Origin: Clostridia bacterium
Lineage (GTDB): Bacteria; Bacillota; Clostridia; Christensenellales; Borkfalkiaceae
Direction of reading: 5' to 3'
NCBI GenBank assembly: GCA_017473605.1
Contig: JAFUKM010000011.1
Coordinates: forward strand, 1 to 59,801
DNA length: 59,801 nucleotides
Part shown: one piece after another, positions 13,472 to 53,009 of the stretch
How positions within the stretch are numbered: the first letter of the stretch is position 1
Layout: every line of letters begins with the position of its first letter
Notes under the pieces: generated by a model
Seen by the model: only the letters and a program-made list of their open reading frames with translations
The model's database searches: none
Told to the model about the DNA's origin: nothing
Program-made: the position numbers and the translations under genes

Positions 13472-14452
13472 TTACTCCCACTCAATCGTTCCGCAGGGCT
13501 TCGGCGTTAAATCGTACAACACGCGGTTGACGTTTTCCACTTCCGTCGTGATTCGCGCCGTGATTTTACCCAAAACATCGTAAGGGATTTCTTCTATTGT
13601 CGCCGTCATCGCATCCACCGTATTCACCGCACGGATAATAACGGGATATGCGTACGTACGCTTACCGTTCTGTACGCCTACCGAACGGAAATCGGGCACA
13701 GCCGTGAAATATTGCCATACTTTGCCTTCCAAGCCTGCTTTCGCGAATTCTTCACGCAAAATTGCGTCCGACTCTCTTACCGCTTCCAATCTATCGCGTG
13801 TGATTGCGCCAAGGCAACGAACGCCAAGACCGGGTCCGGGGAACGGTTGACGGTATACCATATCGTCGGGCAAACCGAGCGCGCTACCCACCACGCGAAC
13901 TTCGTCTTTATACAAGAATTTCAAGGGTTCTACAAGTTCGAACTGCATATCTTCGGGAAGTCCGCCTACGTTATGGTGCGCCTTTACTCCGTCGCTCTCC
14001 AAAATGTCGGGGTAAATCGTACCTTGCGCGAGGAAGGAAATTCCTTTGAGCTTGCTTGCTTCTTCGTCGAACACTTTAATAAATTCGCCGCCGATGATTT
14101 TACGCTTCTTTTCGGGTTCGGCAACGCCCGCCAAAAGTCCCAAGAAACGTTCGGTTGCGTCTACGTAGATAAGGTTTGCGTCCAGTTGTTTCTCAAAAAC
14201 TTCAATTACCTGTTCGCTTTCACCTTTACGCATAAGCCCGTGGTTTACGTGCACGCAAACGAGTTGTTTGCCCACTGCTTTGATAAGTAAAGCCGCTACA
14301 ACGGAAGAATCCACACCGCCGGAGAGAGCAAGCAAAACTTTCTTATCGCCCACTTGTTTACGAACGAGCGCAACTTGTTCTTCAATGAACGCGTCGGCAA
14401 GCGCTTTTGTGTTGATACGAGCCATACTTTCGGGACGTACGTTGTTTTCCAT
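13472..14452 (-). CDS. guaA: GMP synthase ATP-pyrophosphatase subunit, no glutaminase domain
   Basis: 326 aa, against about 515 for the usual bacterial GuaA. The ATP-PPase domain starts almost at the N-terminus, with the P-loop SGGVDS at residues 44-49. The C-terminal dimerisation domain is complete ([16 protein letters not shown]..., ending TIEWE). The class I glutamine amidotransferase half is absent, and no upstream frame in the window encodes it. It would aminate XMP to GMP with ammonia, or with a separate glutaminase subunit as in archaea. It is last in a guaB-thrH-guaA run. Confidence 0.9.
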
Positions 14453-14481: not shown

Positions 14482-15084
14482 TCAATCTAACACGGCTTTG
14501 ATAGCAGCAAGCAAGTCGTCGTATTCTTCATACGCAGGCAAATCGGGGTTATCCGCTTTGATTTTGTCCGTACTCTTGAACAAAAAGCCCGCTTTACTTG
14601 CTTTTATCATACCCAAATCGTTATAGCTGTCCCCTGCCGCAATCGTATCGTAACCAATCGATTGCAACGCTTTTACCGTTGCGTACTTGGATTTCTCCAC
14701 GCGCATTTTATAGCCCGTGATTTCTCCGTTTTCCGCCACTTCCAACGTATTGCACATCAACGTCGGAAAACCGAGTTTTGCCATAAGCGGCATACCGAAT
14801 TGCGTAAACGTATCGCTGATAATAATCACTTGCGTACATTTACGGAGCTCGTCCAAAAACGCTTTCGCTCCGTCAAGCGGTTCTATCTTTTCGATAATAG
14901 CGCGAATTTCGTTCAAACCCAAATTATGTTCTTTCAAAATCCCCAAGCGCCATTTCATGAGCTTATCGTAATCGGGTTCGTCTCTCGTCGTTCTCGTAAG
15001 CTCGGGAATTCCACTCGCCTTAGCAAACGCTATCCAAATTTCAGGCACTAAAACGCCTTCCAAATCCAAACAAACTACGTTCAT
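14482..15084 (-). CDS. thrH: Phosphoserine phosphatase/homoserine phosphotransferase, ThrH type
   Basis: 200 aa HAD-family phosphatase. Motif I is the ThrH-type DLEGVLVPE (residues 7-15, where other HADs have DxDxT), followed by IIISDTF (about 88-94), a lysine near residue 132 and AAGDSYNDLGM (about 150-160). ThrH hydrolyses phosphoserine and can pass the phosphate to homoserine, linking serine and threonine synthesis. It sits between guaB and guaA with short gaps (12 and 29 bases), so it is co-transcribed with GMP synthesis for no obvious pathway reason. Confidence 0.87.
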   Translation of the reverse strand: MNVVCLDLEGVLVPEIWIAFAKASGIPELTRTTRDEPDYDKLMKWRLGILKEHNLGLNEIRAIIEKIEPLDGAKAFLDELRKCTQVIIISDTFTQFGMPLMAKLGFPTLMCNTLEVAENGEITGYKMRVEKSKYATVKALQSIGYDTIAAGDSYNDLGMIKASKAGFLFKSTDKIKADNPDLPAYEEYDDLLAAIKAVLD

Positions 15085-19244: not shown

Positions 19245-20642
19245 TTACATTAACGTAATAATGAGTTGTGAAGCCAACACAACCAAGACAAGCGCAATCG
19301 GATACGTCGAAGCATACGCCGACGCTACGTCGTCCGTCTTTGCCGTCGAAATCAACGTACCGAGCGCAGGGGTACTTGTCATACCGCCCGTAATCGAGCC
19401 GAGATTGTTCAAAAGCGGCAATTTCAATACGTATTTACCAAGGAAGAAACCGACAATCATCGGCACGAGCGTCATAAGCGCGCCGCCAAGGAAGCCCCAA
19501 CCAACAATTGCGCCGCCGAATTTAGAAATCTGTTCTACAAGCGATACGCCGCCGTGTACGCCTGCGCCGAGCAAGAACAGCGCCAACCCAAATTCACGGA
19601 GAACTTTAAGCGTGCTTTCTTTGACTTCGAGCGAAAGTTTGCCGATATGACCAAAGTGCCCGAAAATCAAGCACATAATGAGCACGCCGCCCGTCGTACC
19701 GAGCGAGAACGTCGCGCCGTCGTAGCCTGCGCCCGTCAAGGGAATCGTGATAGAGCCGAGAAGCAAACCTGCAACAATCGCAAGACCGAACGGCAAGAAA
19801 CCGAAATCTTCGCATTTGAAATATTTAGAATAATCTCTTTGTTCTTCCAATCCACCGAGTTTCAAGTATTCTCTCTCTTTCGCCATATCAGCCTTTAAAA
19901 ATTTAGGCATAAGTTGCACGAAAAGCACTACGCCGACTACGCCGAACGGATATGCGATAGCGTGTCCAAGCGTAATAAGTGATTCCAAATCCGCTTGATT
20001 AGTCGCACCAACGACAGCGTCTTTTGCAGCCGAGAATCCGGGCGTGGACGTAAGCGCGCCCGACAAAACGCCCGACCAATATTCGGGACCGTATTCGGGC
20101 GTCAATAATGCAAAAAGCACAGCCACGAGCGTTCCCGACAAGATAATAACAATACCGAGTACGATATAAGTCTTGAAATTCTTTGCCAAATTCTTAAAGA
20201 AATTAGGTCCGGCGATAAAGCCCACGCTACCCACGAACATAACCAAACCGATGTTTTGAATCGTACCTTTAAACGTATCGACAACCGCCGAATCTTCCGT
20301 CAAATGAAAGCCCGAAAACAAACCCGCGTCTTCGGGAATCAACGTGCAAAGAAAACCGACCAATATTGCGATAAGAAATACGCCAGCCGTACCGAGCGAC
20401 ACGCCTTTGATATTGATACCGCCAAGCAAATATCCCAATGCAAGCACGATAAACGCAATCGTAAATAACACGAACGTAGTACCGAAATTGAAAACGTTTT
20501 TCACGCCGTCCACTTCCTGTCCGTCCTTAATATTCGGATTGTAAATCGCGCTTAAAGTGCACCATACGGCAATACCTGCCACCACCAAAAGCGCAATGGT
20601 AATCCAAAGCCATTTCAAATTCTTCTTTTTTTGTTTTTCCAT
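19245..20642 (-). CDS. Aspartate-alanine exchanger family transporter
   Basis: 465 aa, about 10-12 hydrophobic segments. The two halves each carry the repeated motif of the Asp-Al_Ex (YidE/YbjL, TC 2.A.81) family: SGALTSTPGFSAA (near residue 195) and GGMTSTPALGTL (near 432). Family members exchange amino acids or dicarboxylates such as aspartate/alanine or succinate. It is the last gene of the malate-fumarate-Flx-Hdr-Frd operon, 82 bases after frdA, so succinate export or C4-dicarboxylate/aspartate exchange is a reasonable inference. AGAAGG precedes the ATG. Confidence 0.83.
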   Translation of the reverse strand: MEKQKKKNLKWLWITIALLVVAGIAVWCTLSAIYNPNIKDGQEVDGVKNVFNFGTTFVLFTIAFIVLALGYLLGGINIKGVSLGTAGVFLIAILVGFLCTLIPEDAGLFSGFHLTEDSAVVDTFKGTIQNIGLVMFVGSVGFIAGPNFFKNLAKNFKTYIVLGIVIILSGTLVAVLFALLTPEYGPEYWSGVLSGALTSTPGFSAAKDAVVGATNQADLESLITLGHAIAYPFGVVGVVLFVQLMPKFLKADMAKEREYLKLGGLEEQRDYSKYFKCEDFGFLPFGLAIVAGLLLGSITIPLTGAGYDGATFSLGTTGGVLIMCLIFGHFGHIGKLSLEVKESTLKVLREFGLALFLLGAGVHGGVSLVEQISKFGGAIVGWGFLGGALMTLVPMIVGFFLGKYVLKLPLLNNLGSITGGMTSTPALGTLISTAKTDDVASAYASTYPIALVLVVLASQLIITLM

Positions 20643-20724
20643 TTTTTACCTTCTCTTATGCGGACGAAAACGCACAAAGCGTACATACCCCGTGCGTTTT
20701 GTCCTTTTTATTTCATTTTTTCAA

Positions 20725-22330
20725 TCAATTCGCCTGTCTTCTGTAATCGGGAAGGAGCTTGGGCGATACTACGTCCGTGGAAATCCCCGCGTCTTCCAAT
20801 TCCTTTTCAAAAGCGTCAACGTGCGAAAGCGTAAGTTCTTTCAGTTCTACGCTCTTCCACTTTTCGCCTGCCTGTTGACCTGCATTTCTACCGAATACGA
20901 TGATATCGAGCAGCGAGTTACCCATAAGACGGTTCGTGCCGTGGATACCCCCCTACCGCTTCGCCTGCAACGTACAAGTTCTCTACGCACGTCATACCGT
21001 TTGCACCGATATCCAAGCCGCCGTTTTGATAGTGAAGCGTAGGATAAATCAAAATCGGTTCTTTACGGATATCGATACCGTATTTACCGAACATACGGAG
21101 CATTGCGGGAATACGCTTTTCAATCGTTCCTTCGCCGTTAAGAATATCAATCAGCGGCGTATCGAGCCATACGCCTTCGCCGTCCGTCGTCTTGATACCC
21201 TTTTTGTTTTCTTTGCACTCGCGAATAATCGACGACGCCGTAACGTCGCGCGTTTCAAGCGAATATACGAACGCTTCGCCGTCTTTATTGACAAGCTGTG
21301 CGCCCAAGGAACGTACTTTTTCCGTTACAAGCGCGCCGTAAATTTGCGTAGGTTCAGCCGCGCCCGTAGGGTGGTATTGCAACGTTTCGGGGTACAACAA
21401 TTTCGCGCCTGCGCGATAACCGAGCACAAGCCCGTCCGCCGTCGCGCCGTAGTGGTTGGACGTAGGGAAGCCTTGATAATGCAATCTACCTGCGCCGCCC
21501 GTTGCAATAACGACGGTTTTCGCTCTTGCAATCAAAATTTCCTTCGTTTCCATATTCATAAGCACCGCGCCTGCAACCTTGCCGTCGGTGTCTTTGATAA
21601 GCTCGATTGCCGACGTGAAGTCTACCACCGTAATACCGCGGTTAAACACTTCGTCGCGGAGCGTACGCATAATTTCCGAACCGGAATAGTCGCGACAAGC
21701 GTGCATACGTTTTCTTGACGTACCGCCGCCATGCGTCGTTACCATCGTACCGTCTTCTTCCTTATCAAACATAACGCCCAAGTTATTTAACCACAAAATC
21801 GCTTCGGGCGCTTCGTTTACGAGTTTATACAAAAGTTCGGGTTTATTTTTAAAGTGACCTCCGCCGAGCGCGTCCAAATAGTGCGTAGCAGGGCTGTCGT
21901 TGGGCTTATCCGCCGCTTGAATACCGCCTTCCGCCATCGCCGTGTTAGCATCGCCCAAGCGAAGCTTGGTAACAATCATAACGTTTGCGCCGCGTTCGTT
22001 CGCTTCGATTGCCGCGGACGAGCCAGCGCCGCCGCCGCCGATAACGAGTACGTCTACGTCGTAATCAATCTTCGTAAGGTCGATATGCATATCCTTCACA
22101 CGGGAGTGCGCTTGCAAAAGACTTGCAAGTTCATGCAAAACCTTACCGCCTTTATTTTTCCCAACTTTCAATTCTTCATACGCGGAAGTGATATAGTCGG
22201 GGTGGAACTGCGCCAACACGGCGTCTTTTTCTTCCGCCGTCATACGCGCGTGTAATTTTTCAATACGGGAAGCACGGCTTGCTTCTACTTTCTTCATCGA
22301 TTCGAGTTGTTCATCGGTATAATGATACAT
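20725..22330 (-). CDS. frdA: Fumarate reductase flavoprotein, soluble type, with one-base frameshift
   Basis: Reads as a 534-aa fumarate reductase/succinate dehydrogenase flavoprotein if one base is removed from the G6 run at 20948-20953. As it stands, the first frame stops at 20918. An N-terminal extension of about 90 residues precedes the FAD motif VLVIGGGGAGS (98-103). QYHPTG, the TRDVTAS arginine and LHYQNGG match the catalytic region of FrdA. The second substrate arginine (HGTNRL) lies after the frameshift. The residue aligned with the covalent FAD histidine (E. coli FrdA His44) is Asn129, so FAD is probably non-covalent. L-aspartate oxidase is the alternative, made unlikely by the adjoining frdB. 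Confidence 0.85.
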
Positions 22331-22341
22331 AGTGCTTCTCC

Positions 22342-23016
22342 TTATTTTTCGATTTCTCTATGGTTATAGAGATTTTTTTGTTCTTCAAGCGGCGTGTTCA
22401 TAATCGCTTCAAGCGCCGCTTTGCAATCCCCTGCGTCGATTTCCGCTACGCGATTGATAAGATGTTCGCTCTTAGGCGCAAGGTACTTACCCGTAAGTCT
22501 GCGCGTAAGCAACGCAACCTGCGGATGAGAAATACCTGCGGGGCAGCGGGAAGAACATACGCCGCACATTACGCAGTCGAAGCTCTCTTCCGCAGCCTTT
22601 TCGTATTCGCCGCGTTGCGCGTACGCAATATACTGCATGACGTTAAGTTCTTGCGTGCAGCTCTTGGTACAAGCGTTACAACCGATACACGAATAGATTT
22701 CGGGATAGAGTTGCATCATAATTTGTTGCGTGGGTTTGATTTGTTCTATGTCGTAAACTTGTTTTACAAGGGGGAAGAACGGGAGCGTCGCCACGTACAT
22801 ACCTTCTTCTACTTGTTGTTGACAAGCCAAACAGGTCTTTAATTCTTGTTGCCCTTTGATACGGTAAATCGTTGCGCAAGCGCCGCAAAAACCGTTTCTG
22901 CAACCGCAACCGCGAATAAGCTGATATCCAGCGTATTCCATCGCTTTCATAATCGTCAAACTTTCCGGAACTTGATAGCGTTTACCGAAAAGAAATACGT
23001 TTACCATTTTTTCCAT
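22342..23016 (-). CDS. frdB: Fumarate reductase iron-sulfur subunit, FrdB type
   Basis: 224 aa from the ATG at 23016 (AAGGAG 8 bases upstream). The N-terminal domain holds the [2Fe-2S] pattern CRNGFCGAC plus a distal Cys (about residues 36-60). The C-terminal domain has two cluster motifs, CIGCNACTKSC (about 108-118) and CVMCGVCSSRCP (about 147-158). It is shorter than thiol:fumarate reductase TfrB and lacks its CCG domains; those are supplied by HdrB in the same operon. No membrane anchor gene follows, so the enzyme should be soluble. It lies 11 bases before frdA. Confidence 0.87.
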   Translation of the reverse strand: MEKMVNVFLFGKRYQVPESLTIMKAMEYAGYQLIRGCGCRNGFCGACATIYRIKGQQELKTCLACQQQVEEGMYVATLPFFPLVKQVYDIEQIKPTQQIMMQLYPEIYSCIGCNACTKSCTQELNVMQYIAYAQRGEYEKAAEESFDCVMCGVCSSRCPAGISHPQVALLTRRLTGKYLAPKSEHLINRVAEIDAGDCKAALEAIMNTPLEEQKNLYNHREIEK

Positions 23017-23029
23017 TGCTGTTTTCTCC

Positions 23030-23857
23030 TTAATACTCATTGGGAAGCTCGTCAAGCTCCGTCATACGGAATACGGGTCCGTCTTTACATACGAATTTGT
23101 CCCCTACATTACATCTGCCGCATTTGCCGATACCGCACTTCATACGAAGCTCTAACGTCGTGAATACGTTGGACTTTTCAAAACCGAGTTCCAAAAGCCC
23201 TGCAAGCGTGAACTTAATCATGATAGGCGGACCGCAAAGCACTGCCGTCATATTGGGATTCAAGCCCAATTCTTTTACGTATGCAGGTACGAAACCGACG
23301 TGTCCGTCCCAATCGTCTTGGGGACGGTCAATCGTGAGATATACTTCCGTATTCGGTTCGTTCATCCACTCCGTCTTGATTTCTTCGATGTCCACAAGGT
23401 CGTCCTTGCTTCTTGCGCCGTATACGATAACCACTTTACCGTAGTTCTCGCGATAATGACGAACGTAGTTGATAACGCTACGCAGAGGCGCAAGACCGAT
23501 ACCGCCTGCGATAAAGAGCAAATCTTTGCCCTTAAAATCTTCTTCTACGGGGAAGTTTTTACCGTAAGGACCGCGTACGGTAATTTGTTGTCCCACTTCC
23601 ATCGCGTGCAAAACTTCCGTAACGCAACCGCATTTTTTAATGGAGAATTCCATAAATTCTTTATTCGTGGGCGACGAAGTAATCGAGAACATACACTCGC
23701 CAACACCGGGGACGGAGACCATCGCACACTGACCAGGCATATGTTCGAACAGTTTTTTGCCGTCCGTTCCCACTACGCGGAAGGTTTTTACGTCGGGCGT
23801 GTCTTTTCTAATGTCCGTGATTACGCCGACTTTGGGAATCAAATTTTCATTAGTCAT
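23030..23857 (-). CDS. flxA: FlxA-like NAD(P)H:flavin electron-entry subunit
   Basis: 275 aa ferredoxin-NADP reductase fold. It has an FAD-binding barrel (GQCAMVSVPG, FSITSSP), the NAD(P) motif GGIGLAPLRSVI (near residue 118), LCGPPIMIK (near 211), and a C-terminal [2Fe-2S] motif CGIGKCGRC...C as in dihydroorotate dehydrogenase electron-transfer subunits. This matches FlxA of the FlxABCD-HdrABC complex, and resembles AsrB. GGAGG precedes the ATG, and the start overlaps flxB by 8 bases. It is expected to feed NAD(P)H electrons to the Hdr core. Confidence 0.83.
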   Translation of the reverse strand: MTNENLIPKVGVITDIRKDTPDVKTFRVVGTDGKKLFEHMPGQCAMVSVPGVGECMFSITSSPTNKEFMEFSIKKCGCVTEVLHAMEVGQQITVRGPYGKNFPVEEDFKGKDLLFIAGGIGLAPLRSVINYVRHYRENYGKVVIVYGARSKDDLVDIEEIKTEWMNEPNTEVYLTIDRPQDDWDGHVGFVPAYVKELGLNPNMTAVLCGPPIMIKFTLAGLLELGFEKSNVFTTLELRMKCGIGKCGRCNVGDKFVCKDGPVFRMTELDELPNEY

Positions 23858-24878
23858 TGTCCTTACCTCCGAGCGTTTTGATTACTTTTACGATATTGAG
23901 ATGCTGCGGGCATTTATTGACGCATCTTCCGCAACCCACGCAAGAATACAATCCGCCGTTTTGGGAAGGATAGTACACAAGCTTGTGCATAAATCTTTGA
24001 CGGAAACGTTGCATTTGCGTCGTACGGGAATTGCCGTGCGCCATAAGCGTGAAATCCGAATACATACAGGAATCCCAACAACGGTAACGGATAATCCCTT
24101 CGTTCGTCTTGAAATCGCGTACGTCAAAGCATTGACACGTCGGACATACGAACGTACAAGTACCGCAACCAAGGCAGGCTTCGCTCATTTCTTCCCACTC
24201 TTGCGCATTGAAAAGCTCGTTCAAATTTTCAGGTTTGAACTTGCTCAAATCAAGGTTGGAGAAAGGAAGTTCGTCGATAACCGCTTTCGTCGCTTCTTGT
24301 TGCGCTTTCACTTCCGTTTCACCGCCGTTGTCAAGCAATTCTTTAACAATTGCCGTCAAGTTTTCACCCTTTTCGGTGTTCGCTTGCCAATACATATACC
24401 CTTCGTCCATCCACGTCGTAACGTCGCCTTGGGGCGCGGTAGCGTCGATGCCGAATACCTTACAGAAACAGCTTTCTTCTACTTTGGAGCAAGCAAGCGT
24501 AACGATAACGCTCGCTTCTCTTCTCGATTGATAATAGGTGTCTACGGGGTCTGCCAAGAACACTTTATCAAGCACGTCAATAGCCTTATAGTCGCAAGCG
24601 CGCACGCCGAAAAGCACGAACGCGTCTTTTTCGCTACGGATATCGATAACCTCGATGTTCTTGCCTTCCGTTTTGAACTTCATCATATTTTCGCTTTGCG
24701 GGAAAAACAAATCCTTGGGAGATTTGACCGTTTTCAGCGTTTCCACCGACGTTTCCACGCCCGCTTCGTATGCGCCGTAATTTACCTGTCCAGCCTTTTT
24801 AATCGGCATAAACAAGGGCATATTTTCCGCAATTTTGCTATACAGTTCGTTTAATCTTTCTTTCGCAATCTTAAACAT
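23850..24878 (-). CDS. flxB: FlxB-like iron-sulfur subunit
   Basis: 342 aa. The N-terminal half resembles the AsrA/hydrogenase beta family (DAFVLFGVRACDYKAIDVLDK). The C-terminal third has two [4Fe-4S] motifs: CLGCGTCTFVCPTC (about residue 234) and CVGCGRCVNKCPQ (about 316). It probably wires FlxA to the other Fe-S subunits. Its ATG overlaps the flxC stop (TAATG). The related sulfite reductase subunit AsrA is an alternative, but no siroheme subunit is present. Confidence 0.78.
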   Translation of the reverse strand: MFKIAKERLNELYSKIAENMPLFMPIKKAGQVNYGAYEAGVETSVETLKTVKSPKDLFFPQSENMMKFKTEGKNIEVIDIRSEKDAFVLFGVRACDYKAIDVLDKVFLADPVDTYYQSRREASVIVTLACSKVEESCFCKVFGIDATAPQGDVTTWMDEGYMYWQANTEKGENLTAIVKELLDNGGETEVKAQQEATKAVIDELPFSNLDLSKFKPENLNELFNAQEWEEMSEACLGCGTCTFVCPTCQCFDVRDFKTNEGIIRYRCWDSCMYSDFTLMAHGNSRTTQMQRFRQRFMHKLVYYPSQNGGLYSCVGCGRCVNKCPQHLNIVKVIKTLGGKDND

Positions 24879-25855
24879 TATTTTGCCTCCCCGTTAAACA
24901 CGTCTTTCGGCTCTATGTCCCCTTCCGTATAAGAAGTGAGAGGCGTTTTGCCTTCGTCCGTTTCCCCTGCTTGGAATTCGCCGTATAAGCCGTCGATATC
25001 CTTGATAAACTTACGGTTGAGAAGGTGCAAAGGAATATGTTGAGGGCAAACTCTCGAACACTCGCCGCAGTCCGTACATCTACCTGCCACGTGGAACGCG
25101 CGGATTACGTGGAAGAGCTGTTCTTCAAATTCCGAATCGTTTGCTTTCGCCGCAATACCCGAGTGGGGATTATCGAACACGCATTTCACACAAGAACAAG
25201 CAGGACATACGTTTCTACAAGCGTTGCAACGAATACACTTGGAAAGTTGTCCTTTCCAGAACGCAAAGCGTTCGTCTTCCGTCATCGCTTCGAGCTTTTC
25301 CACTTCTTCAAAGCGGTTTACGTCGCGTTCGGGACGTTCGTGCAAGATAATTTCTTCGTCTTTTGCTTGGTGCGTCTTATTGCATACTGCGCACTTGGAA
25401 AGTACAACTTCGGGTTTGTAAAGGGTGTATTCACCGTTGGTCGTAACGACTTTTACGTCCTTGTCCTCAACGTCTACGCTCTTTACGATACCGTCCGTCT
25501 TTTCCTTAATCGCTTCGATATTTAATTTTGCAAGGCACTCTACGGCAATCACGTACACGTTTTCGCGTTTGATACGGTGTTCTTTCACAAGTTGATTGAA
25601 ACTGTACGTATCGCAAGGTTTCAAAAATACCGCCGTTTTGCCTTCCTTCTTGCTCATTTGAATCAAGTATTTGGACAAATTTGCGCCGCAGAACCAATCG
25701 TATACGAAATCTTTGAGTTCGTCTACCGTTTCAAAGGACGCAGGCGTGGGGTCATAGAAAAATTCGCCTTTTTTCCAACCGATGACGCGCGCTACTTCGC
25801 CGCTTTCCAAAAGCTGTTTCGCGCGTTCAAGCATTTTCATTTCAACGTCTTTCAT
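24878..25855 (-). CDS. flxC: FlxC-like iron-sulfur subunit
   Basis: 325 aa from the ATG at 25855 (AGGAGG 9 bases upstream; a GTG at 25864 is the alternative). The N-terminal half has the FrhB/HdrA-partner look (KTAVFLKPCDTYSF, VYVIAVECLAK). The C-terminal half has the cluster motifs CIRCNACRNVCPACSCVKC and CTDCGECSRVCPQ. It fits FlxC, the second Fe-S subunit of the Flx complex. FlxB and FlxC are similar in domain layout, so the letters could be swapped. Confidence 0.76.
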   Translation of the reverse strand: MKDVEMKMLERAKQLLESGEVARVIGWKKGEFFYDPTPASFETVDELKDFVYDWFCGANLSKYLIQMSKKEGKTAVFLKPCDTYSFNQLVKEHRIKRENVYVIAVECLAKLNIEAIKEKTDGIVKSVDVEDKDVKVVTTNGEYTLYKPEVVLSKCAVCNKTHQAKDEEIILHERPERDVNRFEEVEKLEAMTEDERFAFWKGQLSKCIRCNACRNVCPACSCVKCVFDNPHSGIAAKANDSEFEEQLFHVIRAFHVAGRCTDCGECSRVCPQHIPLHLLNRKFIKDIDGLYGEFQAGETDEGKTPLTSYTEGDIEPKDVFNGEAK

Positions 25856-25856
25856 C

Positions 25857-26312
25857 TTATTCACCCTCCTTTACACGAAGGTCGGTAAGGCGTTTGTTTT
25901 CGCCGAGCGCGGTTACCGTTTTTACAAAATCGTTCATAACGGCGGAGAAACGCGCGCCTTCCGCTGCGGAAACCCACTCTACGCGCGTGCGTTCCTTTTC
26001 TATACCCATATAATTCAAGAAACTGAACAACAGCGCCATTCTTCTTCTCGTATAATAGTTACCCGTTACGTAATGGCAATCCCCAGGGTGACAACCGCAA
26101 AGGATTACGCCGTCCGCGCCCTGTTGGAAGGCTTTTAATACGAACGTGGGATTTACGCGGCAGGAACAAGGCACGCGGATAATCTTTACGTTAGCAGGAT
26201 AGCTCAAACGGCTGGAACCTGCAAGGTCTGCCCCTGCGTACGAACACCAGTTGCAACAAAAGGCAACGATGTTGGGCACAAATTCTTTCTTTTCGGTGCT
26301 TACTTCTTGCAT
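25857..26312 (-). CDS. flxD: FlxD/MvhD-like electron-transfer subunit
   Basis: 151 aa MvhD/FlpD-family [2Fe-2S] protein: FCCNWCSYAGADLAG at residue 19, RVPCSCRVNP near 48, and the cysteines of CGCHPGDCHY near 73 give the five-Cys signature. MvhD docks onto HdrA and passes electrons into its bifurcating flavin. The start overlaps the hdrA stop by 13 bases, which fits a stoichiometric HdrA-FlxD pair. Confidence 0.9.
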   Translation of the reverse strand: MQEVSTEKKEFVPNIVAFCCNWCSYAGADLAGSSRLSYPANVKIIRVPCSCRVNPTFVLKAFQQGADGVILCGCHPGDCHYVTGNYYTRRRMALLFSFLNYMGIEKERTRVEWVSAAEGARFSAVMNDFVKTVTALGENKRLTDLRVKEGE

Positions 26313-28291
26313 ATTGCTTCCACCTCCGACATAATTTGTTTCGAGCTAAATCCTTTCAAATCCATCGCACCCGAAGGACAGGTTACCGTACAAGCGCCGC
26401 AGCCTTGGCATACAGCAGGGTTGACGGACGCTACGCGACGGATTTCCGTTTTACCGCCGCCAAGACGGAATTCTTTATCTACGTACGTGATGGCGCCGTA
26501 TGCGCAAACGTTGGCGCATTGACTACAACCGTTACACATATTTTCATCGGGCGTTGCCACGCAAGGGTTGGTCTTTAATTTGTCTTTTACAAGCAAACCG
26601 ATTACCTTTGCCGCGCAAGCGGACGCCTGCGATACCGTTTCGGGAATATCTTTCGGTCCTTGGCATACGCCAGCAAGATATACGCCCGCCGTGGGACTTT
26701 CCACGGGACGGAGCTTCGCATGCGATTCGGTAAGGAAGTTGTTGGTGTCGATACTTGCCGTCAACAACGTCGCTACCTTTCTCACCGAAGGCTCGGGTTC
26801 GATAGCCGCCGCCAATACCACAAGGTCGGATTCAATCGTTACCTGTTCGTTATCGATAAGGTTCGAGCCTTGTACCATAAGCTTGCCGTTTTCGTTATAT
26901 ACTTTCCCAACCATACCTTTGATATAGTTTACGCCGTACTGTTCTACCGCGCGGCGGAAGAACTCGTCATAGTTTTTACCGGGCGTACGCACGTCAATAT
27001 AGAATACGTTGACCTGCGTATCGGGATATTTTTCACGAATAAGCATCGCATGTTTCGCCGTATACATACAGCAAATCTTCGAGCAGTACGGTTTTCCGCA
27101 ACCGCTGGTATCACGTGAGCCTACGCATTGAATAAAGGTAATTATTTTAGGATGTTCGTTATCGGAAGGACGAAGCAAGACGCCGCCCGTAGGGCCTGCC
27201 GCGTTCATCAATCTTTCGAGTTCAAGCGACGTGATAACGTCTTTATTTTCCTCATAACCGTATTCGTTGAACGCCGTAAGTTCGATAGGCTTAAAGCCTG
27301 TCGCTACGACGATTGCGCCGTATTGACGTTCGATAAAGCTGTCTTTTTGCTCGTAGTCAATCGCGCCGACGCCGCAGAATTTTTGGCAAATACCGCATTT
27401 GCCCGTCTTCATTTTAATACATTGCGTAGGGTCGATTACCGCTACGTTGGGAATCGCTTGCGCGAACGGAATATAGATTGCGGGACGGGTGTTCAAGCCC
27501 ATATTGAACTCGTTAAGTCCTTTCTTGGAAGGGCATTTTTCCATACACAATTTACAGCCCGTACACTTCGTTTCGTCTACAAATCTTGCCTTACGACGGA
27601 TTTTTACGCTAAAATTACCGACGAAGCCCTTGACTTCTTCTACTTCCGAATAAGAAAGAATATCTATCTTTTCGTGTTGCGCGCAATCTACCATCTTCGG
27701 CGTTAAAATACAAGCCGAACAGTCAAGCGTGGGGAACGTCTTATCAAGTTGCGCCATACGTCCGCCGATAGTCGCGTTCTTTTCCACAATATCCACTTCG
27801 AAGCCTGCGTCCGCAATATCGAGCGCCGCTTGAATACCCGCGATACCACCGCCGATTACGAGCGCGCGTTTTGCAACCGGACTTTCCCCTGCCATAAGGG
27901 GCGCGTTGAGTTTGACTTTTGCAATCGCCGTACGGACGAGAATCACGGCTTTTTCCGTCGCTTCGTCCATATCTTTATGAATCCACGAACAATGTTCACG
28001 GATATTTGCAACTTCTACCATATACGGGTTAAGCCCTGCCGCTTCCGCCGCCTTACGGAAGGTGGCTTCGTGCATTCTGGGCGAACACGAACCGATTACG
28101 ATACCCGTAAGGTTGTGTTCCTTAATCGCTTGTTTGATGAGTTGCTGTCCGTTTTCGGAGCACATATACTGATAGTTTGCGGAATATACGACGCCCGGTT
28201 CGCTTTTCATGATTTCCGCAACCTTAACGACGTCTACCGTCGCCGAAATGTTGCTACCGCACCAACAAATAAAAACACCTATTCTTTGCAT
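26300..28291 (-). CDS. hdrA: Heterodisulfide reductase subunit A, flavin-bifurcating
   Basis: 663 aa HdrA. The N-terminal domain holds the unusual cluster cysteines (YMCSENGQ, GSCSPRMHE, REHCSW). An FAD/thioredoxin-reductase domain starts with ALVIGGGIAGIQAA (about residue 143) and includes GGRMAQLDKTFPTLDCSACI. Inserted ferredoxin motifs (CTGCKLCMEKCP) and a C-terminal pair (CNGCSQCANVC, CQGCGACTVTCP) complete it. HdrA carries the flavin that splits electrons between ferredoxin and a high-potential branch. The Shine-Dalgarno site is weak. Confidence 0.94.
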   Translation of the reverse strand: MQRIGVFICWCGSNISATVDVVKVAEIMKSEPGVVYSANYQYMCSENGQQLIKQAIKEHNLTGIVIGSCSPRMHEATFRKAAEAAGLNPYMVEVANIREHCSWIHKDMDEATEKAVILVRTAIAKVKLNAPLMAGESPVAKRALVIGGGIAGIQAALDIADAGFEVDIVEKNATIGGRMAQLDKTFPTLDCSACILTPKMVDCAQHEKIDILSYSEVEEVKGFVGNFSVKIRRKARFVDETKCTGCKLCMEKCPSKKGLNEFNMGLNTRPAIYIPFAQAIPNVAVIDPTQCIKMKTGKCGICQKFCGVGAIDYEQKDSFIERQYGAIVVATGFKPIELTAFNEYGYEENKDVITSLELERLMNAAGPTGGVLLRPSDNEHPKIITFIQCVGSRDTSGCGKPYCSKICCMYTAKHAMLIREKYPDTQVNVFYIDVRTPGKNYDEFFRRAVEQYGVNYIKGMVGKVYNENGKLMVQGSNLIDNEQVTIESDLVVLAAAIEPEPSVRKVATLLTASIDTNNFLTESHAKLRPVESPTAGVYLAGVCQGPKDIPETVSQASACAAKVIGLLVKDKLKTNPCVATPDENMCNGCSQCANVCAYGAITYVDKEFRLGGGKTEIRRVASVNPAVCQGCGACTVTCPSGAMDLKGFSSKQIMSEVEAICKK

Positions 28292-28325
28292 TATATTTAC
28301 TCTCTTTATTTAGATTTTTTTACCG

Positions 28326-28712
28326 TTACTTGTTATACTTTCTGTAAGCGCTTACCAAAAGCTGCTGGGGTATGAATTCGTCTACGATAGGCGGAATTTC
28401 TTCTGCCGTTATGCCGTTCTTGCCTTGCATACGCACTACCGTGTCGCGCACCGCTTCCACTACCGCCGCAGGCGCTACGCCACGCGGACAACGTTCTACG
28501 CAAGCCATACAGGAAAGACAGTTCCAAATGGCGTCGCAAGCAAGCAATTCGTCTATCTTACCCCTTTCGAGCATGGATACGAATTGATGGGGTTTGATAT
28601 CCATCTCCTTAAAAGCAGGACATCTACCCGAACATTTACCGCATTTCATACACTTTCTTACGTCTGTGCCGCTCAATCTTTGCATATTTTCAACGCGTTC
28701 TTGTTTCGTCAT
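28326..28712 (-). CDS. hdrC: Heterodisulfide reductase subunit C
   Basis: 128 aa, two [4Fe-4S] motifs CMKCGKCSGRCP (about residue 21) and CLSCMACVERCP (about 65), the whole of a normal HdrC. It relays electrons from HdrA to HdrB. Its start overlaps the hdrB stop by 4 bases (ATGA). Confidence 0.92.
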   Translation of the reverse strand: MTKQERVENMQRLSGTDVRKCMKCGKCSGRCPAFKEMDIKPHQFVSMLERGKIDELLACDAIWNCLSCMACVERCPRGVAPAAVVEAVRDTVVRMQGKNGITAEEIPPIVDEFIPQQLLVSAYRKYNK

Positions 28713-29488
28713 TGTTCCACCCCCAACGCTTCCGCAAGAAGCTCGGTAAAGTATTTCACAGGCAAAATGCCGTCGCCGTTTGCCTGCAAGTTATACAAGC
28801 AAAGCGGACACGCGGTAATCACTTCTTCCGCGCCCTTTTCTTTTGCGCTCATAAGCACTTTGCGGCTCTTTTGTTTGGGCAGTTCGCTATTCTTTAACGA
28901 TACGTACGCGCCGCAACACTCGTTACGGAAGGGATACGTAACGGGCGTACCGCCGATTGCGCGGATAAAATCTTCGATAATCGTGGGATTTTCGGGATTG
29001 TCAAACGCCATTACGCCGCTGGGACGGAGCAAAAGACATCCGTAGTACGCGCCGATTTTTCTGTTCAACGGTTTTACCACCGCTTTTTTAATCACGTCGA
29101 AACCGATTACGTTTTTCAGCATTTCCAAGTAATGGAGCACTTCCGTTTCGCCTTTATACGGCTCGTCAAGCTTCATATAATTGTTAGCGCGAAACTGCAT
29201 ATCTTCGTTCGATTTCATATCTTCGTTGGTACGCTTGATTACGTTATGGCAAGCGGAGCAAAGCGTAAGCAATTTTCCGCCGTGGTGTTTTGCGTAATCG
29301 AGCGCGCGTACCGCCGAAAGTTTGGTTGCGATTTCGTCCGTTCCCATCGGATAGACGGCGCCGCAACATTGCCAATTTTCGATTTCTTCCATTTCTACGC
29401 CCAAAGCTTTCGCGCAAAGACGCGCCGTAACGTCGAGTTCTTTCGCTTTCGTTTTGAGCGTACAGCCGGGATAGTAACTGATTTTCAT
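28709..29488 (-). CDS. hdrB: Heterodisulfide reductase subunit B
   Basis: 259 aa from the ATG at 29488 (AAGGTGG 9 bases upstream; the family start is MK-x-YYPGC). Two complete CCG domains are visible: YYPGC...WQCCGA...CSAC (residues 5-82) and YYGC...NECCGAYVS...CPLC (about 150-230). These bind the non-cubane clusters that reduce a disulfide in methanogens. With no dsrC or methanogen cofactor genes here, the partner could be FrdAB or an unknown thiol. It follows fumC by 26 bases and starts the Hdr block. Confidence 0.92.
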   Translation of the reverse strand: MKISYYPGCTLKTKAKELDVTARLCAKALGVEMEEIENWQCCGAVYPMGTDEIATKLSAVRALDYAKHHGGKLLTLCSACHNVIKRTNEDMKSNEDMQFRANNYMKLDEPYKGETEVLHYLEMLKNVIGFDVIKKAVVKPLNRKIGAYYGCLLLRPSGVMAFDNPENPTIIEDFIRAIGGTPVTYPFRNECCGAYVSLKNSELPKQKSRKVLMSAKEKGAEEVITACPLCLYNLQANGDGILPVKYFTELLAEALGVEQ

Positions 29489-29514
29489 ATCGTGTGCCAC
29501 CTTTTTAAAGGGAT

Positions 29515-30891
29515 TTATTTTTGCGGATACGCCATTTCTTCGGGACGGAACACTTCATCGAATTTTTCCGCCGTCAAGAACCCGAGCGCAACGCAAGCTT
29601 CTTTCAAGGAAATATTTTCTTTATATGCTTTCTTCGCCGTCTTTGCCGCGTTTTCGTAGCCGATATACGGGTTGAGCGCCGTTACGAGCATCAACGAATT
29701 ATAAAGGTTATGGTGCATTTTTTCTTTATTCGCCTTAATACCCGTTACGCAGTTCTTTTCGAACGATACGATACCGTCTGCGAGCAAACGCACCGATTGC
29801 AAGAAATTATAGATGATGACGGGCATAAATACATTGAGTTCGAAGTTGCCTTGCGAAGCGCCTACGCCTACCGCCACGTCGTTCGCCATAACCTGCACCG
29901 CAACCATCGTCATCGATTCGCATTGCGTAGGATTTACTTTACCCGGCATAATCGAAGACCCCGGTTCGTTTTCGGGTATAAAGATTTCGCCCAAGCCGTC
30001 GCGAGGACCGCTAGCAAGCCATCTTACGTCGTTTGCAATCTTCATTAAATTGCAAGCGAGCGCTTTGAGCGCGCCGTGCGCGAATACGAGTTCGTCTTTC
30101 GACGTCAACGCGTGATACTTATTCTCCGCCGTAACAAACTTCTTACCCGTAAGCTCGCTTACCTGAACAGCCACTTCTTCCGCAAAGCCCTTAGGCGCGT
30201 TCAAGCCCGTGCCCACCGCCGTGCCGCCGAGCGCAAGTTCTTTCAAACCGCCAAGCGCCAACGCAAGCTGACCTTTCGTCTTTTCGACCATATTTCTCCA
30301 ACCGCTAATCTCTTGCGAGAAAGCGATGGGAACGGCGTCTTGCAAATGCGTTCTGCCGCTCTTTACAATCCCTTCGTTTTCCGCTTCTAAACGTTTGAGC
30401 GTCGCCGTAAGCTTATCCATAGCGGGGAAGAGATTGTCTTCAATCGCTACCACCGCGGCAATGTGCATTGCCGTAGGGAACGTGTCGTTGGAACTTTGGC
30501 TCTTATTGATATCGTCGTTGGGATGCAAGAGTTTCTTGCCTGCAATTTCGTTGCCGCGGTTAGCGATAACTTCGTTTGCGTTCATATTCGACTGCGTGCC
30601 GCTGCCCGTTTGCCATACGACGAGCGGGAAATGTCCGTTAAGAGAACCGCTAATCACTTCGTCGCAAGCCGCGCAAATCGCGTCTTTCTTTTCTTCGGGA
30701 AGCTTGCCGAGTTTCCAGTTGGCAAGCGCCGCCGCCTTTTTCAAAACGCCGAACGCCTTGGTTATTTCACGGGGCATTACTTCGTCGCCGATACGGAAGT
30801 TTTGATAACTTCTTTGCGTTTGCGCCGCCCAATATCTGTCTGCGGGTACTTGCATTTCCCCCATCGTGTCTTTTTCAATACGGTATTCCAT
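29515..30891 (-). CDS. fumC: Class II fumarate hydratase
   Basis: 458 aa, full length, aspartase/fumarase superfamily. [11 protein letters not shown] (near residue 186) carries the His that marks fumarase where aspartase has Gln, and [16 protein letters not shown] (about 315-330) is the superfamily signature with the catalytic Ser. It interconverts malate and fumarate. It lies 15 bases after the malate dehydrogenase gene and 26 bases before hdrB, so it supplies fumarate to the FrdAB encoded downstream. Confidence 0.93.
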
Positions 30892-30906
30892 TTTTCTTTT
30901 CTCCGA

Positions 30907-31857
30907 TTAAATTTCGATTTGCGCGATAACGTCTTTCAAAACCTTTGCGCTGTTTTGGAACTTCGCCACTTCTTCGTCCGAAAGCTTGGGCGTGAGCGTC
31001 GTAATAACGCCTTGCGAACCGATTGCGCAAAGGGTGGAAAGTGCTACGTCCGACACGCCGTATTCGCCGTCAAGCACGGTGGAAACGGGCAAAATCGTAT
31101 ATGCGCTGGAATAAATACTGTTGACGATTTGCGTTACGCAAGCGGCGATACCGTAGAAGGTTGCGCCCTTGCCCGCAATAATTTTACCGCCCGATTTTTT
31201 CACGTATTCTTCCACTTCTTCGTGCGTATAAGGCGTAATTTTCAAAACGTCCTTTTCCGTCAACGTCTTTTCGTATTCCGCCAAGGGAATCCCCGAAATG
31301 TCCGCCGTCGACCAAGCCACAAACGAGCTGTCGCCGTGTTCGCCCAAAACGTACGCGTGAACTTGCTTTTGGTTTACCGAATACAATTCGGAAAGACGGG
31401 TTCTCAAACGGATACTATCCAGCGTGCAGCCCGTACCGATAACTCGGTTTTTGGGAACGCCCGTAATTTTGCAGAAAACGTAGGTGAGTACGTCTACGGG
31501 GTTTGCCACGAACAAGTAGAGCGCGTCGGGTGCGTGTTTCACGATTTCAGGCGCGATGCTCTTCAAGATATTTACGTTCGTTTGCGTAAGGTCGATACGC
31601 GATTGCCCCGGCTTTCTGCCGACGCCCGACGTGATGATGACGATATCCGAACCGACGGCGTCTTCATACGTACCGCAATAAATCTTTACGGGATGCAAAT
31701 AGGGCGTCGCTTGAACGATATCCATCGCCTCCCCTTTTGCCTTGTCCACGTTGACGTCGATGAGTACGATTTCACCAACCGAACCCGTCGCAACCAGCGT
31801 GTAGGCAACCGTAGCGCCTACCGAACCTGCACCGATGATAGTAACTTTGTTGTTCAT
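30907..31857 (-). CDS. mdh: Malate dehydrogenase, LDH-like type
   Basis: 316 aa of the lactate/malate dehydrogenase family. It has the NAD motif IGAGSVGATVAYTL, LIDV at residues 32-35 (acidic residue for NAD) and the catalytic GEHGDS. Most of the sequence looks like L-lactate dehydrogenase, but the specificity loop reads GVGRKPGQSR: Arg81 stands where lactate enzymes have Gln102 (xQKPGxTR) and malate enzymes have Arg. With fumC next and fumarate reductase in the operon, malate dehydrogenase is the better call. It is the first gene of the 12-gene unit. Confidence 0.82.
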   Translation of the reverse strand: MNNKVTIIGAGSVGATVAYTLVATGSVGEIVLIDVNVDKAKGEAMDIVQATPYLHPVKIYCGTYEDAVGSDIVIITSGVGRKPGQSRIDLTQTNVNILKSIAPEIVKHAPDALYLFVANPVDVLTYVFCKITGVPKNRVIGTGCTLDSIRLRTRLSELYSVNQKQVHAYVLGEHGDSSFVAWSTADISGIPLAEYEKTLTEKDVLKITPYTHEEVEEYVKKSGGKIIAGKGATFYGIAACVTQIVNSIYSSAYTILPVSTVLDGEYGVSDVALSTLCAIGSQGVITTLTPKLSDEEVAKFQNSAKVLKDVIAQIEI

Positions 31858-31962: not shown

Positions 31963-31991
31963 ATTATATCATATTTTTTTTTAAAGCACAA
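31963..31991 (-). promoter_or_regulatory. Promoter of the mdh-fumC-hdr-flx-frd operon
   Basis: On the minus strand TTGTGC (31986-31991) and TATAAT (31963-31968) are 17 bases apart. It gives an untranslated leader of about 100 bases. No terminator or other strong promoter was noticed inside the operon. Confidence 0.6.
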
Positions 31992-32067: not shown

Positions 32068-32096
32068 CAAAAAAAGCCCTGCCCGAAGGCAGAGCC
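32068..32096 (-). terminator. Terminator of the DUF308 gene
   Basis: An 8-bp stem (GCCCTGCC/GGCAGAGC, one G-U pair) with the stable loop CGAA (TTCG on the minus strand) is followed by eight T on the minus strand. Confidence 0.85.
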
Positions 32097-49869: not shown

Positions 49870-51048
49870 TCAAACGGTTTTTTGCAACGTTTCCATCACG
49901 TAATTGCCGAATTCTTCACAAGTAGCGCCCGTGTCGCGGCCCGTAATAACCATCTTCTTTTCTTCGAACGAGCAAATATCAAGCGCTTTTTCCAACTTAT
50001 CCGCTCTATCCTGCAATCCGATATGCGAGAGCAACATTACGCAAGCGCGAAGCATAGAACAAGGGTCTGCGTACTTACCGCGTCCTTCCGTTACCATACG
50101 GGGCGCGCTGCCGTGAATCGCTTCGAACATCGCGTATTTTTTACCGATATTTGCACAACCTGCCGTACCTACGCCGCCTTGGAATTCCGCCGCTTCGTCC
50201 GAAATGATATCGCCGTACAAATTGGGCAATAACAACACCTTGAAATCGCGACGGCGTTTCTTATCGACGAGCTTCGCCGTCATAATATCCGCGTACCACT
50301 CGTCCGTGAGAATTTCGGGATACAAATCCGCCACTTTGTGGCAATCTTCCAAGAAGTTGCCGTCCGTCGTCTTAATAACGTTCGCCTTCGTAACGAGCGA
50401 TACTCTATTCATACCGTTTTTGCGCGCGTAATCATACGCAAGACGGGCAATTCTGTCCGAGCCTTGCTTCGTCGTAATCGTAAAGTCTACCGCCAAATCT
50501 TCCGTTACGTTAAACCCGCTGGAACCTACTGCATAACCGCCTTCGGTGTTTTCGCGGAAAATTACCCAGTTGATACCCTCTTCGGGTACTTTTACGGGAC
50601 GGATATTCGCAAACAAATCGAGCGCTTTTCTCATCGCCACGTTTGCCGATTCGATATTGGGCATACCGCTACCCTTTTGCGGCGTAGTCGTCGGTCCTTT
50701 CAAAATAATATGGCAAGCTTTGAGCTGCTCCATAACGTCGTCGGGAATCGCTTTACCCTTGGCAATACGGTTTTCAATGGTAAGCCCTTCGATATCCTTG
50801 AATTCCACTTTCCCTGCTTTCACCAAATCGTCCAAAATGAATTCAAGCACTCTTCTTGCTTGCGCGGAGATAATCGGACCGATACCGTCGCCGCCGCAAA
50901 CGCCGATTTTGATACAATCGAGCGCTTGATAATCCACGAAATCACCTTGCGATTTCATATCTTCTACGCGCACAAGCTGCTTTTCGAGAATTTTTCTGAA
51001 TTTCTCGCAAGCAACGTCTAATTGCGCTTTATATTCTTGATTTTCCAT
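49870..51048 (-). CDS. icd: Isocitrate dehydrogenase (isocitrate/isopropylmalate family)
   Basis: 392 aa. ESANVAMRKALDLFANIRPV (about residues 128-147) has the Ser, Asn and Arg that bind isocitrate where isopropylmalate enzymes have Leu. FRENTEGGYAVGSSG follows, and DIISDEAAEFQGGVG is the metal-binding segment. The cofactor-selecting pair after EAIHGSAP is Arg-Met, neither the NADP (Lys-Tyr) nor the usual NAD (Asp-Ile) pair, so specificity is open. It completes the route to 2-oxoglutarate with the aconitase and citrate synthase genes ahead of it. Confidence 0.87.
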   Translation of the reverse strand: MENQEYKAQLDVACEKFRKILEKQLVRVEDMKSQGDFVDYQALDCIKIGVCGGDGIGPIISAQARRVLEFILDDLVKAGKVEFKDIEGLTIENRIAKGKAIPDDVMEQLKACHIILKGPTTTPQKGSGMPNIESANVAMRKALDLFANIRPVKVPEEGINWVIFRENTEGGYAVGSSGFNVTEDLAVDFTITTKQGSDRIARLAYDYARKNGMNRVSLVTKANVIKTTDGNFLEDCHKVADLYPEILTDEWYADIMTAKLVDKKRRRDFKVLLLPNLYGDIISDEAAEFQGGVGTAGCANIGKKYAMFEAIHGSAPRMVTEGRGKYADPCSMLRACVMLLSHIGLQDRADKLEKALDICSFEEKKMVITGRDTGATCEEFGNYVMETLQKTV

Positions 51049-51060
51049 AATTACTGCTCC

Positions 51061-52989: not shown

Positions 52990-53009
52990 ATTTATCTCTC
53001 ACTTCTTCA

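Follow-up and report, generated by a model that had tools for sequence, protein, structure and literature searches.

A conserved clostridial operon that joins Flx-Hdr genes to a fumarate reductase, and its probable role in quinone-free fumarate reduction

Related systems

The closest described relative of the genes considered here is the 'succinate operon' of Pseudoclostridium thermosuccinogenes, which comprises genes for a fumarate hydratase, Flx-Hdr proteins (seven genes, if locus tags RS03360-30 step by five), two fumarate reductase genes and a putative succinate transporter (PMC7282089; this and other PubMed Central (PMC) articles are cited for the excerpts used here). With reference to a 2019 preprint of their own, its authors assume a link between the reduction of fumarate and that of ferredoxin. 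They describe an approximately 4-fold increase of operon expression under CO2 limitation, and see the near stop of succinate formation under H2 as fitting a coupling to ferredoxin (PMC7282089). Here we analyze a twelve-gene operon in a 59.8 kb stretch of DNA (hereafter the window), contig JAFUKM010000011.1 of a Clostridia bacterium (GCA_017473605.1; assembly size 1.11 Mb, 63% complete). The genes run on the minus strand from 31857 down to 19245 in the order mdh-fumC-hdrB-hdrC-hdrA-flxD-flxC-flxB-flxA-frdB-frdA-exchanger, and the gene calls bear out this order as first annotated. Compared by description and locus tags (CDQ83_RS03365-RS03315) rather than by sequence, the P. thermosuccinogenes operon has the same gene order (fumarase, Flx-Hdr, two fumarate reductase genes, transporter). 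The differences are that mdh leads the operon here, the exchanger is a PF06826 protein, and P. thermosuccinogenes has Rnf and Ech, neither Rnf nor an Ech/complex I large subunit being found in the window genus.

The gene set for FlxABCD-HdrABC is complete, with the NAD(H)/FAD protein FlxA, FlxB, FlxC, FlxD (PF02662), HdrA, HdrB and HdrC encoded side by side; these are the same seven subunits as in sulfate reducers. There the complex is reportedly (in work of Ramos et al. 2015) linked to DsrC and to ethanol metabolism, whereas here FrdAB is present and no DsrC was found over the cut-off. A second comparison is with TfrAB of methanogens: TfrA is the best NCBIfam match of FrdA, and consecutive parts of TfrB are matched by FrdB, HdrC and HdrB in turn. 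Unlike in TfrAB, these parts are separate genes, the CCG part is on an HdrB shared with the Hdr complex, TfrB-type C-terminal CCG domains are not on FrdB, and FrdA and FrdB score below the TfrA and TfrB cut-offs.

In gammaproteobacteria (tubeworm symbionts and Thioflavicoccus), too, genes for fumarate reductase and flx-hdr are intermingled: tfrAB and korABCD are interspersed with flxABCD-hdrABC, and the authors suggest a complex (PMC6315080). That cluster is associated with the reverse tricarboxylic acid (TCA) cycle and includes 2-oxoglutarate oxidoreductase (OGOR) genes, unlike the operon here. Quinol:fumarate reductases and the SdhABE-type 8-methylmenaquinol:fumarate reductase share the FrdA fold and active site, and HdrB resembles SdhE. 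They differ in that the operon has no membrane anchor, FrdA lacks the covalent-FAD histidine, the second Fe-S motif is of the four-cysteine type, and no MenB over the cut-off was found in the carriers. The missing anchor, histidine and MenB led us to reject a classical quinol:fumarate reductase.

The operon is thus of an already known kind, since a like operon and the proposal are in print (PMC7282089, PMC6315080), a precedent that the initial annotation missed. The excerpts used of PMC5861303, PMC9044749, PMC7325909, PMC12542636, PMC6776011, PMC10439189, PMC12887300 and PMC10504309 do not describe it. Not encountered in the open-licence PMC papers searched were the breadth of the operon, its strict core within the class and looser state outside it, units of the form hdrCB-frdBA, and an mdh of the lactate dehydrogenase (LDH) family; the 2019 preprint may hold some of these.

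Proposed pathway and supporting evidence

Together with the reductive branch from oxaloacetate to succinate, the operon probably encodes a soluble, quinone-independent, NADH-dependent fumarate reductase in which an Hdr complex bifurcates and fumarate takes the high-potential branch. Fumarate would be supplied by FumC and a malate dehydrogenase of the LDH family. Hydride from NADH would enter at FlxA, and electrons would pass over FlxB, FlxC and FlxD to the HdrA flavin, the predicted site of bifurcation. One electron would go uphill to ferredoxin, and the other would travel via HdrC, the two HdrB clusters and FrdB to the FrdA flavin, where fumarate would be reduced; FrdB, HdrC and HdrB would together represent a split TfrB. 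The exchanger probably exports the succinate. We observed directly which genes are present, their conservation, the intact ligands of active site and clusters across the family, and the lack of MenB and DsrC over the cut-off in 42 carriers. We infer complex formation, the direction of the reaction, bifurcation and direct electron transfer. With potentials of +33 mV for fumarate/succinate, -320 mV for NAD and -400 to -500 mV for ferredoxin, two NADH and fumarate can drive ferredoxin reduction.

The initial annotation had placed FrdAB on the high-potential branch. Fumarate as the high-potential acceptor is supported by the conservation of the FrdA active site, the match of FrdB, HdrC and HdrB to TfrB, and the finding of no quinone synthesis in the window genus; the frequent lack of linked Hdr genes outside the class (11/20 loci) counts against it.

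Adjacency of hdr, flx and frdAB in relatives, which the initial annotation had put forward as a check, was found across the class. We scanned one genome per species with FrdA and kept the closest 80 of 392 relatives for synteny, counting only loci whose contig reaches far enough. In these best 80 of 392, the core was always in place (frdB 78/78, flxA 74/74, flxB 72/72, flxC 70/70, flxD 67/67, hdrA 57/57, hdrC 57/57 and hdrB 56/56). The outer genes come and go: fumC was found in 52/55, mdh in 35/54 (within a 10-kb flank) and the exchanger in 58/65. Exchanger identity is 73-91% in some relatives and only 45-51% in others, with FrdA at 90-98% in both (L031-L110; loci are numbered with L, genomes with G), and the exporter gene seems to have been swapped between two types. 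Many of the relatives come, by record title, from ruminant gut or chicken samples, and the set includes the isolate Merdimmobilis hominis An559 (L109). A FrdA match (partial in a few cases) was obtained in 32 of the 37 genomes of the window genus, counting our own, and the five misses are 61-73% complete.

In a class-wide set of 291 genomes that includes our own, FrdB (E <=1e-15) was detected in 40, operon-type HdrA (E <=1e-120) in 41, and both in 39. The exceptions are G131 and G092, in which the contig ends inside flxC and flxA, respectively, and G082, with a distant HdrA (47%) and no FrdB. The hypergeometric probability of this co-occurrence (p=8e-45) takes no account of kinship, and we rest no argument on it. 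Other than our own, 38 genomes share both genes, 32 on one contig and strand and six on separate contigs (the HdrA of G233 is in two overlapping pieces). HdrA and FrdB lie 3248-3460 bp apart in 31 of the 32 linked genomes. The remaining one, G328, has a rearranged operon (L141, 915-15657) of the form ttdAB-frdBA-hdrBCA-flxDCBA-aldehyde:ferredoxin oxidoreductase, in which frdBA has moved ahead of hdrB and the first genes score over tartrate dehydratase cut-offs (relatives of class I fumarase). A succinate CoA-transferase gene lies near this operon.

The working FrdA is described from relatives, as frdA is frameshifted in this assembly, a defect that the initial annotation overlooked. The 470-aa frame stops at 20918, ahead of the conserved HGTNRLMGNS motif, and the remainder runs on in another frame to 20725; the break is in a G run (window 20918-20960) immediately before the last catalytic motif. 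Relative to L031, the last 73 codons show 20 silent and 4 changing differences, and the first 460 codons 129 silent and 9 changing. Coding constraint thus persists past the break in the window copy, so the break is a sequencing or assembly error or a recent mutation, two origins not separable here. The frame is unbroken in 80/80 related loci, and a programmed frameshift finds no support. Among further genus relatives, G047 has an in-frame TAG within its FrdA match.

FrdA residues H320, T336, E337, R340, H433 and R467 align with the active site of E. coli SdhA and are invariant in 115/115 rows. Because some loci are present twice, these rows represent only 89 distinct sequences; two 470-aa window copies were left out. 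The same residues are invariant in a second set of 34 rows (the tree set, below), except for a serine at T336 in L163. At the position of the covalent-FAD histidine of SdhA, FrdA has N129 (115/115 and 34/34 rows), so its flavin should be non-covalent. Work on E. coli FrdA indicates that a non-covalent flavin favours fumarate reduction over succinate oxidation. The match to TfrA scores 307 bits, below the cut-off of 718, with a query shortened by the frame break. L-aspartate oxidase was considered and set aside (243 bits to nadB with the shortened query, cut-off 453; fumC adjoins).

FrdB (224-232 aa) has 12 cysteines that are invariant in 33/33 rows and fit one 2Fe-2S and two 4Fe-4S clusters. 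In a first count, 2/78 rows (L056, L074) were fragments from open reading frame extraction. In a wider set (n=21), 20 sequences fit both cluster patterns, L164 fails the second, and none has a CCG motif. The ten CCG cysteines of HdrB are kept in 57/57, in agreement with the first annotation of two retained CCG domains, and both sites are present in all 15 further loci tried. HdrB also matches the SdhE model at 134 bits. Over residues 3-660, HdrA can be aligned with the bifurcating HdrA of methanogens (5odc, 696 bits). On the TfrB model, FrdB matches 19-103, HdrC 124-218 and HdrB 260-465 (E 7e-10, 5e-7 and 1e-10). These successive matches, with the hdrCB-frdBA units described below, argue that HdrC and HdrB would contact FrdB, with electrons passing either directly or by a thiol.

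Gene families were checked against Pfam and NCBIfam, and both agree with the names first given, with qualifications for mdh and frdA. The mdh product, annotated simply as a malate dehydrogenase (MDH), scores above two NCBIfam L-lactate dehydrogenase cut-offs (350 vs 339 bits; 340.1 vs 303.55 bits for TIGR01771) and above one malate dehydrogenase subfamily cut-off (288 vs 283 bits). At the specificity position, all 38 of 38 linked mdh copies have arginine and the aligned LDH 2zqy has glutamine. We therefore retain the name MDH and set aside a plain lactate dehydrogenase. The operon mdh is apparently a natural switch from LDH to MDH.

The electron economy was examined in 42 chosen carriers, consisting of the own genome, 8 of 31 other genus carriers and 33 of 39 other class carriers; less complete genomes were left out. 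No MenB scored over the cut-off in the 42 (two weak matches; MenA was not searched). DsrC was likewise not found over the cut-off in the own assembly, as first annotated, or in the 41 others (one weak match), so a DsrC-linked Hdr was rejected. RnfD is present in 17 carriers, [FeFe]-hydrogenase in 39 and the 49-kDa subunit of complex I/Ech in 2. In the nine window-genus genomes, RnfD, the 49-kDa subunit, MenB and PF02621 are all 0/9, and [FeFe]-hydrogenase is present in eight, the exception being the own, incomplete genome. No [NiFe]-hydrogenase (PF00374) was found in that genome, the sole one searched. HydA adjoins NuoF- and NuoE-like genes in both hydrogenase regions examined. It is classified in NCBIfam as a group A6 NADH-dependent enzyme, and may or may not use ferredoxin.

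Contrary evidence and alternative explanations

Several observations weigh against fumarate as the acceptor of a bifurcating Hdr complex. Among the open-licence PMC papers listed by our searches, we found none that assays an Flx-Hdr coupled to fumarate, and the frdA reading frame of the window itself is interrupted in the assembly. PF02621 scores over the cut-off in 5/42 carriers (27-34 bits, weak), none of them in the window genus. The TfrB matches are weak, below the cut-off (38 bits vs 385 for FrdB with the equivalog model) and the best match of none of FrdB, HdrC and HdrB; for FrdB the best is RnfC (9.8e-11). The two 4Fe-4S sites of FrdB itself lie beyond the TfrB-matched part and are not explained by the tiling. 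That both CCG sites are fully retained would fit a disulfide as the continued substrate of HdrB just as well, and conservation of the operon may reflect co-regulation only.

Further contrary evidence comes from outside the class. The FrdB profile matches 39/398 genomes of the phylum, own included, and we examined 20 of the other 38 matches as loci. Eleven of the 20 have no Hdr gene by tblastn within the stretch (unlinked hdr genes were not searched). Hdr-less FrdAB is adjoined by a pyruvate carboxylase gene (over the cut-off) in L175, by tartrate dehydratase/class I fumarase-like and malic-enzyme-like genes in L174 and L180, and by an NrfH-like cytochrome (below the cut-off) in L163. L162, L164 and L166 have other neighbours than these. 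FrdAB can thus take electrons from elsewhere. In L163 (7930-12479), a glycine betaine transporter gene also adjoins FrdBA, and T336 is serine; this is possibly a FrdAB head with a quinol-linked donor or another substrate.

The other nine loci have linked Hdr genes. Three (L173, L178, L179) have a full Flx-Hdr. Three (L171, L176, L177) have hdrC-hdrB-frdB-frdA with no hdrA in the stretch, and keep both CCG sites of HdrB. In three (L168-L170), FrdBA follows HdrCB, several HdrA-like units and FlxD, possibly a different bifurcating input; the HdrA-like proteins are large (L168, 1489 aa; L169, 1053 aa). Given the 11 loci without linked Hdr, the pairing of Hdr with FrdAB is modular, not a fixed partnership.

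A FrdA tree of 34 chosen rows (the 20 phylum loci and 14 class members or close relatives) places the 13 window-type rows in one supported group of 15, together with the long-branched L165 and L175, which are outside the class and have no linked Hdr. L178, L179 and L141, the last of the window's class, are in the other half. On this tree, 'no linked Hdr' has to change five times, at least four by supported branches. Linkage to Hdr was thus acquired or lost several times, without the tree showing which.

Among the alternatives, a thiol shuttle stands best, and we give it a small chance. Flx-Hdr would bifurcate NADH electrons to ferredoxin and a disulfide, and FrdAB, with HdrB or another CCG protein, would oxidize the thiol and reduce fumarate. 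This would suit the noncubane-cluster sites of HdrB, both kept in 57/57 and in the three hdrCB-frdBA units, and TfrAB of methanogens is thiol-linked (cited in PMC6315080). The interaction of D. vulgaris DsrC with FlxABCD-HdrABC is cited in PMC10504309, and ferredoxin 'and thiols' are named in PMC7282089. However, FrdB has no CCG motif, leaving FrdAB alone without a known thiol site, DsrC is 0/42 over the cut-off, and there is no thiol-carrier gene among the twelve.

Next in probability, and likewise unlikely, is that Flx-Hdr serves another acceptor and FrdAB draws on another donor, with the genes held together through co-regulation. The 11/20 Hdr-less loci and the at least four changes of linkage on the FrdA tree favour such an arrangement, as does the recruitment of the pathway genes mdh and fumC to the operon. 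Yet these two genes are variably present (35/54 and 52/55) while the Hdr-Flx-Frd core is constant, FrdB and HdrA co-occur in 39 genomes against totals of 40 and 41 in 291, and their linkage survives the rearrangement in G328. A non-bifurcating NADH:fumarate reductase, in which HdrA only relays electrons and ferredoxin is uninvolved, is very improbable: use for extra reduced ferredoxin is not obvious in a genus with RnfD and the 49-kDa subunit each at 0/9, but the alignment of HdrA with 5odc (3-660, 696 bits), the [FeFe]-hydrogenase in 8/9 genus members and the aldehyde:ferredoxin oxidoreductase family gene in the G328 operon speak against it.

Features of the locus

Table 1. Features of the operon and its borders (window coordinates).
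Feature	Position	Strand	Basis or remark
mdh, LDH-family NAD-dependent 2-hydroxyacid dehydrogenase with malate-type Arg	30907..31857	-	NCBIfam scores, alignment
fumC, class II fumarase	29515..30891	-	TIGR00979 728.7 bits, cut-off 664.75
hdrB, two CCG (noncubane cluster) sites	28709..29500	-	family match
hdrC, two 4Fe-4S sites	28326..28712	-	family match
hdrA, candidate bifurcating flavoprotein	26300..28291	-	696 bits to 5odc chain A
flxD (MvhD/FlpD family)	25857..26312	-	PF02662, E 7e-56
flxC, iron-sulfur protein	24878..25864	-	cluster domains; name from position and initial annotation
flxB, iron-sulfur protein	23850..24878	-	cluster domains; name from position and initial annotation
flxA, NAD(H)/FAD reductase subunit	23030..23857	-	PF00175, PF00970, PF10418
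frdB, 2Fe-2S and two 4Fe-4S, no CCG domain	22342..23016	-	Pfam (2Fe-2S and 4Fe-4S dicluster); longer starts 23040 or 23055 possible
frdA, fumarate reductase flavoprotein (FAD_binding_2), ~88-aa N-terminal extension, frame broken near 20945-20950	20725..22330	-	
strong hairpin between frdA and exchanger	20662..20704	-	-24.5 kcal/mol, z -4.6
AspT/YidE-family exchanger (PF06826), candidate succinate exporter	19245..20642	-	function inferred from position
candidate promoter TTGTGC-17-TATAAT	31963..31991	-	read by eye; weak -35
terminator-like hairpin of preceding gene	32075..32096	-	9 pairs, 6 G-C, T run

The first eleven genes are separated by -26 to +34 nt (mechanical gene calls), as expected from the tiny gaps and overlaps first annotated. 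That description does not extend to the last pair, where the corrected spacing of 82 nt holds a strong hairpin, so the exchanger may be expressed differently from the rest. The frdB gene probably starts at 23016, which matches the called start in 22/32 relatives (the script prefers an ATG near the query start) and leaves no overlap with flxA. None of the twelve genes encodes a membrane anchor, in accord with the initial annotation.

The promoter first annotated at 31963-31991 has a perfect TATAAT and a 17-nt spacer, but its -35 box matches at 3/6, it is not in the list from a scan of the window, and that scan returned 15 promoter-like sites against 15.1 expected by chance. The hairpin at 32096-32075 marks the upstream border of the operon, apart from the preceding gene; terminator-like sites are at chance level overall (25 vs 23.3). 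Taken as a whole, the earlier reading of the locus is supported in part.

Elsewhere in the window, an HMGL-family synthase (possibly a Re-citrate synthase), an aconitase and an isocitrate dehydrogenase-like gene lie in a row at 49870-54401, and may form an oxidative TCA branch that complements the reductive one. A GMP synthase at 13472-14452 is without its N-terminal amidotransferase domain. The neighbouring gene (14482-15084) encodes a HAD hydrolase and does not supply the absent domain.

Implications

If it works as proposed, the operon would offer a direct test of an Hdr complex coupled to fumarate, so far a proposal in print. More tentatively, and less likely than not, FrdAB-HdrBC may be a split thiol:fumarate-reductase head that works on several inputs in Bacillota (no linked Hdr, HdrCB alone, multi-HdrA or full Flx-Hdr). 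In the window genus, where no quinone synthesis, Rnf or Ech was found, NADH oxidation and fumarate reduction could be coupled to the reduction of ferredoxin, which a HydABC hydrogenase would spend as H2; NADH would then be vented as succinate and H2 in gut bacteria by a membrane-free route. Succinate is among the main intermediates of gut fermentation. If the proposed pathway is true, fumarate reduction, usually a process of membranes and quinones, would be run by a soluble bifurcating complex in about one-seventh of the sampled genomes of the class (40/291).

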